Of a stretch of DNA of 64,000 nucleotides, positions 831-62,136 are shown piece by piece. The translations under genes were made by a program, and so were the position numbers. Numbering within the stretch: position 1 is the first letter of the stretch; the number at the start of each line of letters is the position of its first letter. The DNA is from Chelatococcus composti (lineage in GTDB: Bacteria; Pseudomonadota; Alphaproteobacteria; Rhizobiales; Beijerinckiaceae): assembly GCF_014201415.1 (NCBI RefSeq), contig NZ_JACHEH010000001.1, positions 186,001-250,000 of the forward strand. Direction: 5' to 3'. Under the pieces are notes generated by a model that was not told the origin of the DNA, searched no databases, and saw only the letters and a list, made by a program, of their open reading frames with translations.

Positions 831-5024
<4,194 letters not shown>

Positions 5025-40190: not shown

Positions 40191-41153
40191 GTGAGCCGCA
40201 ACGATTCGATCCGTCCGCGCCCGACGGACAACGCCTTTCTTGGCCCGCTCGAGGGTGGCTCGCTGGAGCCGACCTATTCGGGGGCGCTGTCCTTCATGCG
40301 GCGGCGCTACAGCCGTGATCTCTCAGTGGCGGATGTCGTCGTCTGGGGCGTGCCGTTCGACTGCGCGACGTCCAATCGGCCGGGAGCGCGTTTTGGGCCG
40401 CAGGCCCTGCGCCGCGCCTCGGCTATCTTCGACGGCGATCCGCAGTTCCCGTCGGGGCTCGACCCCTTCGAGGCGCTCACGGTGATCGACTGGGGCGACT
40501 GCTCCTTCGACTATCGCCGGCTCGACCAGGTGCATGGCCTCATCGAGGCGCAGGCGGCGGAGATCATCGCCGCAGGCTGCCATCTGGTGACGCTCGGCGG
40601 CGACCATTCCATCACCCTGCCGCTCCTGCGCGCGCATGTGGCAGAGCACGGGCCGCTGGCGCTGGTGCAGTTCGACGCCCATCAGGACACGTGGGAGGAT
40701 GACGCGGAGGGGATCTCGCACGGCACCTTCGTCACGCGCGCCGAGATGGAAGGGCTCATCGACTGCTCGCGCTCCATCCAGATCGGCATCCGCACCGTGG
40801 CGCCGGACGATTTCGGCATCGCTATCGTCGATGCCTACGAGGCGCGCGGGCTGGGCGTTGCCGGCATCGCCCAGCGCATCCGCGAGCGGGTGGGTGATGC
40901 GCCGGCCTATCTGTCGTTCGACATCGATGCGCTCGACCCCGCCTTTGCGCCGGGCACGGGCACGCCGGTGGCCGGTGGCCTCTCCAGCGCCGAGGCGCTG
41001 ATGGTACTGTGGAGCCTGCGGGACATCGACTGGCGCGGCATGGATATCGTGGAAGTGGCGCCGGCCTATGACCATGCCGACATCACCGCCATCGCCGGGG
41101 CCACGGTGGTGCAGCACTACCTGCAGATCCTCGCCGAGCGGACGCGGGGGTGA
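40191..41153 (+). CDS. speB: Agmatinase (ureohydrolase family)
   Basis: Ureohydrolase that is expected to split agmatine into putrescine and urea, 320 residues. The start is a GTG after GAGGAGACGCT. Manganese ligands are in GGDHS (His139), QFDAHQDTWED (Asp162, His164, Asp166) and SFDIDALDPAFAPG (Asp244, Asp246). The LDPAFAPGTGTPVAGG loop fits agmatinase rather than arginase, but other guanidino substrates cannot be ruled out. It lies immediately upstream of the argC attenuator region and is transcribed in the same direction, which groups two arginine-related genes. Confidence 0.88.
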   Translation: MSRNDSIRPRPTDNAFLGPLEGGSLEPTYSGALSFMRRRYSRDLSVADVVVWGVPFDCATSNRPGARFGPQALRRASAIFDGDPQFPSGLDPFEALTVIDWGDCSFDYRRLDQVHGLIEAQAAEIIAAGCHLVTLGGDHSITLPLLRAHVAEHGPLALVQFDAHQDTWEDDAEGISHGTFVTRAEMEGLIDCSRSIQIGIRTVAPDDFGIAIVDAYEARGLGVAGIAQRIRERVGDAPAYLSFDIDALDPAFAPGTGTPVAGGLSSAEALMVLWSLRDIDWRGMDIVEVAPAYDHADITAIAGATVVQHYLQILAERTRG

Positions 41154-41167
41154 GGGTGCGGGATTCA

Positions 41168-41196
41168 TTGACACGGCAGCCGCTTTCCCGGATAAC
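41168..41196 (+). promoter_or_regulatory. Promoter of the argC leader
   Basis: TTGACA, a perfect -35 element, is followed after 17 bases by GATAAC as -10. Transcription would begin about 7 bases later, at or next to the A of an ATG at 41204. It lies 14 bases after the agmatinase stop. Confidence 0.65.
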
Positions 41197-41203
41197 GGCG
41201 TCC

Positions 41204-41269
41204 ATGATCATCGCTGCTTACAGCACGCTGAACCGACGCCGCCGCGCTGCCCCTGCGCGCGTGCGATGA
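41204..41269 (+). CDS. Candidate arginine leader peptide of argC
   Basis: A 21-codon open frame starts with ATG right at the predicted transcription start, so the message may be leaderless. Residues 11-14 are four consecutive Arg (CGA CGC CGC CGC), with further Arg at 19 and 21, six of 21 in total, and the frame ends with TGA. It is followed 25 bases later by an intrinsic terminator and then by argC. The layout matches leader peptides for amino-acid biosynthesis genes, where a stalled ribosome alters RNA folding. GCACGC (41223-41228) can pair with GCGTGC (41259-41264), and GCGCG at 41255-41261 with CGCGC in the terminator arm (41297-41301). Translation of this frame is unproven. Confidence 0.6.
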   Translation: MIIAAYSTLNRRRRAAPARVR

Positions 41270-41293
41270 TGCGACCTCGCCTGTCGTGATCCG

Positions 41294-41320
41294 AGCCGCG
41301 CCCCGCAGCGCGGCTTTTTT
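41294..41320 (+). terminator. Intrinsic terminator (attenuator) before argC
   Basis: AGCCGCGC and GCGCGGCT form a perfect 8-base-pair stem around CCCGCA, ending in a run of six T. It lies between the Arg-rich leader frame and argC, 78 bases before the argC start, so it would stop transcription before the structural gene unless an alternative structure forms. Confidence 0.85.
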
Positions 41321-41397
41321 GATGCAATTTTGTCCCCATCCTCTGCTACCACCGGCGCGCGTGAACGCCATCGCCCGGACAATCGTCAGGAGCCGTC

Positions 41398-42375
41398 ATG
41401 AACGACACCTCGCTTCTCAACCCCGCGCGGTCCAGCTCTTCCGGCGCGCGGGCGCCACGCGTCTTCATCGACGGCGAGGCCGGCACCACGGGGCTTGGCA
41501 TCCGTGAGCGCCTTGCGGCGCTGCCGCAGATCGAGCTGAGGTCCATTGCGCCCGAGCTGCGCAAGGACGTGGAGGCGAAGAAGAAGCTGCTCGCCGAGGT
41601 CGACCTTGTCGTCCTCTGCCTGCCGGACGCAGCCGCCAAGGAGACGGTGGCGCTCGTCGACGCGCTGGGCGAGGCGGGCCCGCGCGTGCTCGACGCGAGC
41701 ACCGCCCACCGGGTCGCGCCGGGCTGGGTCTACGGCTTTGCCGAGATGGCGCCGGGGCAGGGTGGAGCCATCGCCAAGGCCCGGCGCGTGGCCAACCCCG
41801 GCTGCTATCCGACGGGTGCCATCGCGCTGCTGAGGCCGCTCGTCGACGCCGGCCTCGTGCCCGCGGACTATCCCGTCACCATCAACGCGGTCAGCGGCTA
41901 TTCCGGTGGCGGGCGCACGATGATCGAGGCCTACGAGGCGGGCACTGCGCCTTCCTTCGAACTCTACGGCCTCGGCCTCGAGCACAAGCACCTGCCTGAG
42001 TTGCAGGCCTACTGCGGCCTCACGCGCCGGCCGATTTTTGTGCCGTCGGTCGGCAACTTCCGCCAGGGCATGCTGGTGTCGATCCCGCTGCATCTCGATA
42101 CCCTGCCAGACAAGCCGACGGGGGCCGACCTGCAGGCGGTGCTCGCCGCCCGCTATGCGGTGAGCGAGCTGGTCTCCGTCGTGCCGCAGGACGACGCGAG
42201 CGTGACGGCCGGCAGGCTGGAGGCAGAGGCCCTCAACGACACCGACCGGCTGGAGCTGAGGGTCTATGCCAATGAGGCGCGGCGGCAGGCGGTGCTCGTC
42301 GCCCGGCTCGACAATCTCGGCAAGGGCGCCTCGGGGGCAGCGGTGCAGAACATCCGCCTGATGCTCGGCGTCTGA
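41398..42375 (+). CDS. argC: N-acetyl-gamma-glutamyl-phosphate reductase
   Basis: ArgC reduces N-acetylglutamyl-phosphate to the semialdehyde in arginine synthesis. It has 325 residues. The NADPH-binding start is [18 protein letters not shown], the catalytic Cys is Cys136 in [11 protein letters not shown], and the substrate loop is [12 protein letters not shown]. The motif pattern and length place it in the shorter (type 2) AGPR class common in alphaproteobacteria. CAGGAGCCGTC precedes the ATG. It is preceded by a probable attenuator and followed by a bidirectional terminator, so it forms a single-gene transcript. Confidence 0.95.
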
Positions 42376-59277: not shown

Positions 59278-62136
59278 TCACCACGCGCTGCGCAGGCCGA
59301 GCCTGGCGTCGACTCGGTAGTTCCCGCCGCGACCGGAGAGATTCGTGGCCGCGTTGACCTCCCCATAGAGCGAGAAGGCATCGTCGTCGAAGTTGTAGGA
59401 ACCGCCGAGTCCGAGGCCAGCCCATGTCCGTGGCTCGTCGTTCGCGAGCCGCACGCCGGAGCCCTTGGCTGACACGCCTTCGAGAAACTCCTGATAGACG
59501 TTGGCGATGGCATGCAGGCTGAGGCGTCGCAGGAGGCGGGACGGGCTTGTCCACTGCCGCTCGTGCTGCAGGGCAAGGCCGATGCGGGCCTGCAGGCTGT
59601 TGCGGCGGTCATCGCTGACGACGGCTCCGAAGGGGTCGGTGAACCGGTCGTAATGAACGCCCGCCCAGGTCAGCTGCGCCTGGGGCACGAGGCCGAGGGT
59701 GGCGCCGAGAGGAAATCGCTGCCCGAGTTCGAGGCTCATGGCGTGGCCGAAGCCCATGACGCCGTTCTTGAGGGCGCGATTGAGCGTGTGGGACTGCAGG
59801 TCCGTCTCGAGGCGCGACAGACTCGCCTGGGCATCGGCATAGAAGCCACCGCTGCTGTACCAGGTAGCCGTGCCGCCGAAGCCGAAGGCGGTGGTTTCGT
59901 TGCGCCCCCGCCCGAAGGGCGAGGAAATTTCGGCGAACGCCTGCCCGTAGTGCAGGCTGAGGCCGCCGACGAGGGTTCCGGCCGCGCTCTGGAAGGTGAG
60001 AAAGTCGAGGCCAACCTCGCCGCGCCCCTGGCGCTGTTCGAGGCGGGCGTCAGTGGTGACGAAGCCGCCCCTGAGGCGCAGGAACTCGCCGTCGACTCGG
60101 CCCCAGAAGCCGCTGCCTTCTGTAAAGGCTGTATCGGCGGGGGCGGTACTGTTCCTGTCAGCCCCCTTGGCCTGCCACGACCGGTTGCCGACGCGCTGCT
60201 GCAGGGTGGGGCGCCTCATGAGGCCCAGCGCAACGCGCGGCATCGTCTCGTAGAGCGGCACGCCCGGGTGATAGATGCGCTCCGGCATCGGGGGAGCCTC
60301 GGGTTCCGGGCTGCTGCCGTCCGACAGCAGATAGGAGCGCAGGTACCAGTCGCCGTCGGCGGGATCGCTGATGCCGTTCTTCCTCAGGACATAGCCGTAG
60401 AGACCGGCGCCGACCGCCGGCTCGCCATTGTAGAGGAAGTCCCCCACCAGAGAGAACGTGCCGTTGGAGGCGCCCCAGACATCGACGATCTTGATGCCCT
60501 CGACGGTCTGTGCGCCGCTCCCGCCGACGTTCTGGACGACCACTCTGGTCAGGCCGGAAGTGTCGCCCTGGATCACGAGCATGTCCGTGGGCGAGGCGTC
60601 GCCGCCGAGGACGGTTTCGATGTGCAGCTCGCCGCCGTCGCCCACGTAGTTGCCTGCAACGGTCAGCACGCCGATGGAATTGCCCGGCGCCACGACACCC
60701 CGGTTGGTCAGGTCACCAACGATGCCGATGCCTTGAAGGCGGCCGGCGCTTTCGACATTCATCGTGCCGCCGAGCCTTCCGTCGATGCGCAGGCTCCCCC
60801 CGTGGACGGTGGTCGTGCCGGAGAACGCCGAGCTGTCCGGCGCCGTGAACTGGGTGTAGCCGGCATGATGATCGATCCGTCCGTTCCCGTGGACGACCGG
60901 CGCGAACAGGTATGGCCCATCAGCCAGCGTCGTCGTGTGGTTGAAGACGAGTGTCGCGTCGCCGTTGCCGAAGTAGATGCTGCCGGTGTCGAGGTTCCCG
61001 GATTCAGCCGGGCTGTCGCCCGCAGCGGCCCCGATGTTGATGACGCCGTGGGTGCTCGCTCCGATCCCGATGCCGACCTCTCCCAGCGTCCGGAGCGTGC
61101 CGCCGCGCAGCAGCGTCAGGAAGCCGGAACCGTAGGTGTAGCCGACGGCCGTGTCCCCAGCGACCGTGACTTCCGCTTCCCGGTCGATGGTCATCGTCGC
61201 CTGCGAGCCCGACATCCAGCCCATCAGCAGATTGTCGCCGATGTCGAGCGTCGCGCGGTCGTCGACGAGGACGCCGACGCGTCCAAATTCGCCGATCCGT
61301 CCGGCGCCGGTCGTCGTGATGGCTGATCCCGGTCCCGTCAGCGTGAGGGAAGTATACTGGTAGTTGCTGCCGAGTTGCAGCAGGCCACGGCTGCTGGGGC
61401 TGCCACCGACGCCGACGATCGAGATCTTGCCGCCGTTGCTGACCTCGATGGTGGCATCGCCGGTCATTCCCGCGGCCGACAGGTCGCGCCCGGTGATGGA
61501 AAGTTCCGATCCTGGTCCATCGACTGTGAGGGAGCCGGAGCCCTGGGTATTCGCGAGCGAGACGTTGTAGACACTGACCTTGCCGCCGTTCGCGATGAGG
61601 ACATGCCCGTCGCCGTTGGGCTGCCCGCCGATGGTCAGGTGATTGTTGCCCAAAATGCTGAGCTGGGCGCCGGGGCCTGAAACGGTCAGCCAGCCATAGT
61701 CAGAGGCGCCGACTTCGATCGAATTGCTGACCGTGACGCTGGAGGAGAAGATGCCGAGGCCGCTGGTGGGTGCGAGGACGATGCGGCCCAAGGTGAAGAC
61801 CGAGTTGTCGGCTATGTGTAACTCGGATGAAGCGGAGGCACTTCCGATATTGAGCGCAGTGCCCTGGAAAGTTATTCCCGATGCGATGACAGGAAGCGGT
61901 CCGGTGTCGATCCAAATGTTGACGGAGTTTGTCGCTCCCGAAACGGGTGGTGAACCACCTTCCCAGTTTTCTCCATCACTCCATTGGTCAGATATTCCGC
62001 CTTTCCATGTATATGTCTGGGCATGTGAGGGACATGGGAATAGAATTAAGAGAAATATTCCCAGTCTTCTCCAATCGTGATGCGTGCATAACGCGTTGCT
62101 CTTGACGGATCGGGTGAGAGGTTCGATATCGCGCAT
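59278..62136 (-). CDS. Autotransporter with outer membrane beta-barrel domain
   Basis: Type V secreted surface protein, 952 residues from an ATG after GGGAGGATGTCGC (an ATG six codons upstream lacks a binding site). An extended signal peptide of about 41 residues has LGIFLLILFPCPSHAQ. The passenger (about 42-650) starts with TYTWKGGISDQWSDGENWEG and consists of repeated beta-helix units with phrases such as LTVSGPGAQLSI, LTVDGPGSELSI and LTLTGPGSAITT. A linker rich in Pro/Glu leads to the 270-residue barrel domain (GFWGRVDGEFLRL onward), which ends LGLRSAW with a terminal Trp. No protease or adhesin motif (RGD, catalytic triad) is evident. The upstream region is AT-rich, unlike the gene. Confidence 0.93.
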   Translation of the reverse strand: MRDIEPLTRSVKSNALCTHHDWRRLGIFLLILFPCPSHAQTYTWKGGISDQWSDGENWEGGSPPVSGATNSVNIWIDTGPLPVIASGITFQGTALNIGSASASSELHIADNSVFTLGRIVLAPTSGLGIFSSSVTVSNSIEVGASDYGWLTVSGPGAQLSILGNNHLTIGGQPNGDGHVLIANGGKVSVYNVSLANTQGSGSLTVDGPGSELSITGRDLSAAGMTGDATIEVSNGGKISIVGVGGSPSSRGLLQLGSNYQYTSLTLTGPGSAITTTGAGRIGEFGRVGVLVDDRATLDIGDNLLMGWMSGSQATMTIDREAEVTVAGDTAVGYTYGSGFLTLLRGGTLRTLGEVGIGIGASTHGVINIGAAAGDSPAESGNLDTGSIYFGNGDATLVFNHTTTLADGPYLFAPVVHGNGRIDHHAGYTQFTAPDSSAFSGTTTVHGGSLRIDGRLGGTMNVESAGRLQGIGIVGDLTNRGVVAPGNSIGVLTVAGNYVGDGGELHIETVLGGDASPTDMLVIQGDTSGLTRVVVQNVGGSGAQTVEGIKIVDVWGASNGTFSLVGDFLYNGEPAVGAGLYGYVLRKNGISDPADGDWYLRSYLLSDGSSPEPEAPPMPERIYHPGVPLYETMPRVALGLMRRPTLQQRVGNRSWQAKGADRNSTAPADTAFTEGSGFWGRVDGEFLRLRGGFVTTDARLEQRQGRGEVGLDFLTFQSAAGTLVGGLSLHYGQAFAEISSPFGRGRNETTAFGFGGTATWYSSGGFYADAQASLSRLETDLQSHTLNRALKNGVMGFGHAMSLELGQRFPLGATLGLVPQAQLTWAGVHYDRFTDPFGAVVSDDRRNSLQARIGLALQHERQWTSPSRLLRRLSLHAIANVYQEFLEGVSAKGSGVRLANDEPRTWAGLGLGGSYNFDDDAFSLYGEVNAATNLSGRGGNYRVDARLGLRSAW

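Follow-up and report, generated by a model that had tools for sequence, protein, structure and literature searches.

The classical ribosome-mediated transcription attenuators are those of trp, his, leu, ilv, thr, and phe. Similar to these, the leader that lies upstream of argC in Chelatococcus composti has a short ORF in which end-product codons form a run, and between this ORF and the biosynthetic gene it has an intrinsic terminator, with an antiterminator as the predicted alternative fold. It departs from them in that arginine would be the amino acid sensed, the 1:2 helix is unsupported in the window (the whole stretch of 64,000 nucleotides that was analyzed, i.e., positions 186,001 to 250,000 of contig NZ_JACHEH010000001.1), the rare codon CGA is obligate, and the leader precedes non-orthologous genes of one pathway. 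The mechanism proposed here is classical; the amino acid, the codon choice, and the spread look new.

Passages of PMC10117765 describe the trp attenuator of Sinorhizobium meliloti as leaderless, with a transcript that begins at the AUG of the leader ORF. Like this trpL leader (rnTrpL/peTrpL), the argC leader belongs to an alphaproteobacterium, and its transcript is predicted from promoter spacing to start at the leader AUG; in contrast, S. meliloti trpL concerns tryptophan and trpE, and its released RNA and peptide have functions reported in the same passages. The uORFC-8-2 motif before cysS in Rhodobacterales, for which a section of PMC8632094 proposes ribosome-mediated attenuation, likewise comes from alphaproteobacteria and has a leader ORF in which regulatory codons stand in tandem, together with a terminator; however, its amino acid is cysteine and its gene encodes cysteinyl-tRNA synthetase. 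According to an excerpt of PMC13009471, the rbfL leader peptide of Staphylococcus aureus also has rare Arg codons in its leader ORF and senses arginine shortage, but it controls the translation of a biofilm regulator and not termination before an arg gene. The speF leader of Salmonella, as portrayed in part of PMC6386406, adopts alternative mRNA conformations at low versus high arginine; it differs from the argC leader in serving polyamine synthesis, i.e., another gene in another group of organisms. Searches of open-licence PMC papers showed no arginine leader attenuator for arg genes; the sequence-only reading of this locus had held that an arginine version before argC might be new.

Anatomy of the leader in the window

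All features of the locus lie on the plus strand, and every coordinate given in the sequence-only reading is correct upon re-reading. The promoter (41168-41196) consists of TTGACA (41168-41173), a 17-nt spacer, and GATAAC (41191-41196), and its predicted start falls at or beside the leader ATG (41204-41206), which is located 8 nt past the last base of the -10 hexamer. The leader ORF (41204-41269), as read from the sequence and from relatives, encodes the 21-residue peptide MIIAAYSTLNRRRRAAPARVR without a predicted 5' UTR and ends in the stop codon TGA (41267-41269). Six Arg codons are present in the whole ORF, and the putative regulatory codons are CGA CGC CGC CGC (41234-41245). The proposed 5' side of the antiterminator, strand 2 (GCGCGCG, 41255-41261), lies within the last codons and pairs with 41297-41301 in the folds of the window. 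The complementarity of GCGCG near the end of the ORF to CGCGC (41297-41301) and that of GCACGC (41223-41228) to GCGTGC (41259-41264), both pointed out in the sequence-only reading, are present in the sequence. In the RNA fold of the window leader, a small hairpin around and after the stop codon (41268-41291) is contained within the antiterminator. The intrinsic terminator (41294-41320), recognized in the sequence and in the aligned leaders, has an 8-bp stem (41294-41301 and 41308-41315) that includes a closing A-U pair, a 6-nt loop, and six T's (41315-41320), and its 5' arm is also strand 3.

The ATG of the downstream gene is at 41398, 78 nt beyond the T run. This gene (41398-42375), argC also in the sequence-only reading, matches the TIGR01851 type (type 2) of N-acetyl-gamma-glutamyl-phosphate reductase with 406.6 bits against a cut-off of 229.85. 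The upstream neighbor (40200-41153; the predicted start is approximate) is a speB-like agmatinase (NF002564, 427.2 bits; TIGR01230, 213 bits). None of the Rfam families matches the window leader at the gathering score; the best match below threshold at the leader is RF02837 anti-hemB (24.7 versus 49.5 bits, E = 7.8e-4 in a 321-base search), and this family was not among the matches at E ≤ 1 in 11 loci, including one of identical sequence (L001).

Distribution, downstream genes, and codon choice

The argC set comprises 110 loci, i.e., 80 from the genome collection and 30 from the own genome and its relatives, with some genomes represented twice because two collections were used; argC is on the expected strand in every locus. 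In a first screen, a locus had to have an ORF that begins with ATG and contains an Arg run, with a T run past its stop; 38 loci passed, and 32 were left once L045, L055, L080, L105, and L107 had been removed as doubtful and L091 as a duplicate of L015. The subsequent addition of L004, L055 (with its proper start), and L095 via the covariance model R1, described below, gave 35 of 110 loci that carry the same leader element, and 74 of the 110 have no leader in this form. The leader-bearing loci include Bosea, Microvirga, one Bradyrhizobium, and several MAGs; none of the Methylobacterium argC loci among the 110 passed the leader screen. In one Rhizobiales MAG (L012), a tRNA-Sec gene (3520-3610) is located just downstream of argC.

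Since the MAFFT alignment A1 misplaced the Arg run in the Bosea rows, alignment A2 begins at the first Arg codon. There is free variation in the N-terminal codons, and the Arg run, the GC-rich segment near the ORF end, the terminal CGATGA, and the terminator are largely kept. The sequence-only reading had looked to such an alignment for a conserved Arg run, stop, and terminator with covarying bases between them; the conservation was found, whereas covariation was slight, the antiterminator core and, in A2, the GCGCG region of strand 2 being near-invariant.

To gauge how often such an element arises by chance, we scanned both strands of L003-L111 and of the window, 1,124,338 bases in total. A site had to have an ATG preceded by TTGAC at a distance of 33-40 nt, a short ORF (10-32 aa), and, 25-75 nt past the stop, a T4 run; Arg was not required. 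The scan returned 43 ORF rows at 40 sites, namely, 35 argC leaders of this type (one from the duplicate genome L091), 1 other Arg-run leader (L019), and 4 unrelated sites; the control is the remainder of the same DNA because the loci were chosen for holding argC. Judged by this comparison of sequences, the occurrence of the leader element before argC is not due to chance. One of the four unrelated sites, at 62135 of the window, combines promoter-like spacing with a short ORF and a T run but lacks an Arg run.

The covariance model R1 was built only from the segment past the N-terminal codons and thus contains no promoter, ATG, or N-terminal codons. It was run on 397 genomes of the order. With the training set left aside, each of its 13 best matches (E ≤ 6.4e-7) has an in-frame ATG that TTGAC precedes by 35-39 nt, and 9 of the 13 have no alternative in-frame ATG. 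At E ≤ 0.01, R1 matched 114 of the 397 genomes, a figure that overstates the spread because only 23 of 51 inspected match places (30 + 21) are leaders; the remainder resemble ordinary terminators or chance. Weak R1 matches were therefore not accepted as leaders, being mixed with ordinary terminators behind other genes. A second model, R2, matched 15 of 385 genomes of the class at E ≤ 0.001, and inspection identified leaders in the own genome and in four further genomes outside the order (G435, G516, G518, and G545).

Altogether, 58 distinct leaders were compiled (32 and 26 further; L004 was left out, and closely related genomes are included). TTGAC lies 35-39 nt from the in-frame ATG in all 58 and 35-37 nt from it in 56. 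More than one in-frame ATG occurs in 24 of the 58, and there the one fitting the promoter spacing was chosen, in a few cases by hand; with this choice, promoter spacing predicts a transcript start at the leader AUG in 58/58.

The genes behind the 58 leaders are argC type 2 (43), argC type 1 (12), argD (2), and a Rid-family gene (1). In 12 genomes of genus g52, the leader precedes the argC of the other type (TIGR01850), the product of which is 28-31% identical to the ArgC of the window. Family models were run on L118 (argD), L121 (argC type 1), L169 (argD; the locus ends within the ORF), and L119, and the gene calls for the remaining leaders are based on ArgC similarity or on where the ORF starts. 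That one kind of leader stands before unrelated enzymes of the arginine pathway is, more than any other finding, what points to a role in arginine synthesis. Outside g52, argC type 1 was discarded as a leader target: 85 of 114 genomes matched, and an Arg ORF with promoter spacing or a T run was upstream in 0 of the 30 loci examined. In the own genome, argG, argJ, and the best argD match were likewise rejected as further attenuator targets, their upstream regions having no such leader. The Rid-family gene, which is followed by an ACT_7 domain gene, is in L119; its Arg leader (1442-1544, minus strand) resembles those of argC in type and does not precede a known arg gene.

An Arg run is found in 58/58 leaders (RCR was counted as a run in L055 and L095), and CGA is within the longest run in all of them, including L094, whose ORF also has an earlier RAR. 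The 175 Arg-run codons of these leaders include 66 CGA, 4 CGG, and no AGG; CGA accounts for 2.4% of the 1220 Arg codons in 43 ORFs of the window, which were called by length and GC3. As stated in a part of PMC3711424, one inosine tRNA reads CGU, CGC, and CGA in most bacteria. The obligate CGA probably marks a codon that is presumably translated slowly by the inosine tRNA-Arg, which serves CGC and CGU as well. The fixed CGACG may have a reason in RNA structure.

Other candidate leaders were also noted. A second, different Arg-run ORF that looks leaderless (e.g., MLNALTTAKARRRIPAAWVDARV) lies approximately 855-895 nt upstream of argC in L005, L019, L022, and L044, which belong to Rhodopseudomonas and Bradyrhizobium; in L005 it precedes an FMN_bind_2 gene (PF04299), which is itself before argC, and the Rhodopseudomonas loci of this class have a hairpin past the stop with no T run. 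In L185 (approximately 1450-1590), the short ORF MISATAATYFWYFSYPTVPAEAGVRAI, with a YFWYF run, is followed by a GC stem, seven T's, and a DAHP synthase gene (PF00793); judging from its sequence, this leader looks like an aromatic amino acid attenuator.

Predicted folds of the terminator and antiterminator

The folds were calculated at equilibrium, ignoring the order of RNA synthesis. In the 32 leaders, the median predicted probability of the terminator is 0.055 with Arg1 in the A site, 0.18 at Arg2, 0.54 at Arg3, 1.0 at the stop (above 0.5 in 31/32), and 0.84 without a ribosome; when the stretch from the stalled ribosome to the terminator is shuffled, the median is 0.80. In the 26 further leaders, the median at the Arg1 stall is 0.43 versus 0.87 for shuffles, and the terminator exceeds 0.5 in 26/26 with the ribosome at the stop. 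The 2:3 antiterminator that the sequence-only reading proposed is thus supported in these models against shuffles (0.06 versus 0.80 when rounded, in the 32 leaders), clearly in the 32 leaders and more weakly in the 26; in 9/32 and 12/26 leaders, in which the terminator remains above 0.5 at Arg1, the antiterminator effect is not shown.

For the window itself, the predicted terminator probability is 0.01 at Arg1 (shuffle mean, 0.71), 0.93 at Arg2, 0.96 at Arg3, 1.0 at the stop, and 0.03 without a ribosome. In these predictions, the antiterminator is thus released by a ribosome stalled at the CGA, the first Arg codon, and at no later Arg codon. The ribosome-free leader is also expected to antiterminate, in part through pairing of the Arg-codon segment with the 3' arm of the terminator. 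In the nearest relatives of the window, L083 and L084, the terminator stays at 0.99 and 0.93, respectively, when the ribosome is stalled. In L029, the terminator and the ORF end both depart from the usual sequence and still pair with each other; its terminator probability is 1.00 at the Arg1 stall.

RNAalifold lends support to the terminator in its consensus, and covariation there is scant; within the stem, one pair changes from GC to AU in 11 of the 32 aligned leaders and a second pair changes in one sequence. Covariation cannot prove the antiterminator, since its core is almost all G-C and hardly variable. A 1:2 protector helix belongs to the classical scheme, and some attenuators are without one. 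The 1:2 helix that the sequence-only reading had drawn across the Arg codons is not supported in the window, where 5.5 pairs are expected versus 12.6 in shuffled leaders; across the 32 leaders, the median is 10.2 expected pairs versus 7.4 in shuffles, and the mean fraction of shuffles that equal or exceed the real leader is 0.37. We therefore rejected the helix as proposed, as it is weaker than shuffles in the window and weakly supported elsewhere.

Proposed mode of action and arginine regulation

The best explanation of the element, as the sequence-only reading had suggested, is a leaderless arginine leader-peptide attenuator; conservation extends to the distance from promoter to ATG, the Arg run, the stop, and the terminator around variable N-terminal codons, and the element is also found before argC type 1 and argD. 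From this anatomy, conservation, and association with arg genes, together with the fold models, we infer the start site, the stalling, the termination, and the arginine response, and we place the probability that the element is a ribosome-mediated transcription attenuator of argC sensing arginyl-tRNA at roughly 0.9. The first transcribed base would be the A of the leader ATG, which would let a ribosome load at once on the leaderless message. With charged tRNA-Arg plentiful, the ribosome would pass CGA-CGC-CGC-CGC, reach TGA, and cover strand 2 (GCGCG); the 5' arm CCGCGC would then pair with GCGCGG, and transcription would terminate at the T run after approximately 117 nt. With charged tRNA-Arg short, the ribosome would stall on the Arg run and leave strand 2 free to pair with the 5' arm of the terminator, and the polymerase would continue into argC.

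A ribosome on the leader might instead act on translation by changing access to the ribosome-binding site of argC. A translation-acting leader peptide that senses arginine is known in rbfL (in the excerpt of PMC13009471), and the hairpin without a T run in the second leader class of Rhodopseudomonas would suit such control; however, the stem of the window is followed by six T's and lies 78 nt before argC, and a T run is part of the element in the aligned leaders; we regard translational control as very unlikely. SpeFL and the fungal arginine attenuator peptide are nascent-peptide sensors, and a peptide of that kind, rich in Arg, could stall the ribosome on free arginine or ornithine and not via tRNA charging. 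In favor of such a sensor, Bosea, Microvirga, and the window share the C-terminus AAPARxR, but other lineages end differently (ILIQR, SARA, and SPSGA), while the Arg run, CGA, and the segment complementary to the terminator arm persist; we regard this reading as very unlikely. That the stem-loop is a plain terminator of the agmatinase gene, which is co-directional and ends at 41153, approximately 140 nt ahead of the stem, and that the small ORF is a chance frame in GC-rich DNA is just as unlikely and was rejected, since a SpeB match is upstream in only 13/32 loci within the stretch examined (L040 has little upstream DNA), the promoter spacing and CGA run are conserved, and the same element precedes an argC of another family and argD, even though R1 also matches ordinary terminators behind other genes.

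A broader version of the attenuator reading, which we consider doubtful, is that of a portable arginine sensor in a large part of the Alphaproteobacteria that lacks ArgR; by moving or by arising several times, it would have come to lie before argC type 2, argC type 1, and argD, with the obligate CGA tuned to the charge of the inosine tRNA-Arg and with the released RNA or Arg-rich peptide acting in trans in the manner of rnTrpL/peTrpL. According to the theory of selective charging, as set out in a portion of PMC1183508, regulatory codons are expected to use the isoacceptor that loses its charge first, and the theory predicts the best sensor among synonymous codons; the obligate CGA is a natural test of it.

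The ArgR domain (PF01316) has no match in the own genome (G000); as a control, it matches in 9 of 14 genomes, above the cut-off in 8. A comparative study (PMC5343134, in the part concerned) describes ArgR as conserved in gammaproteobacteria and absent from other classes. The leader would extend ribosome-mediated attenuation to one more amino acid, arginine, and, if conserved, an arginine attenuator would fill part of the gap in alphaproteobacterial arg regulation that is left by the absence of ArgR.
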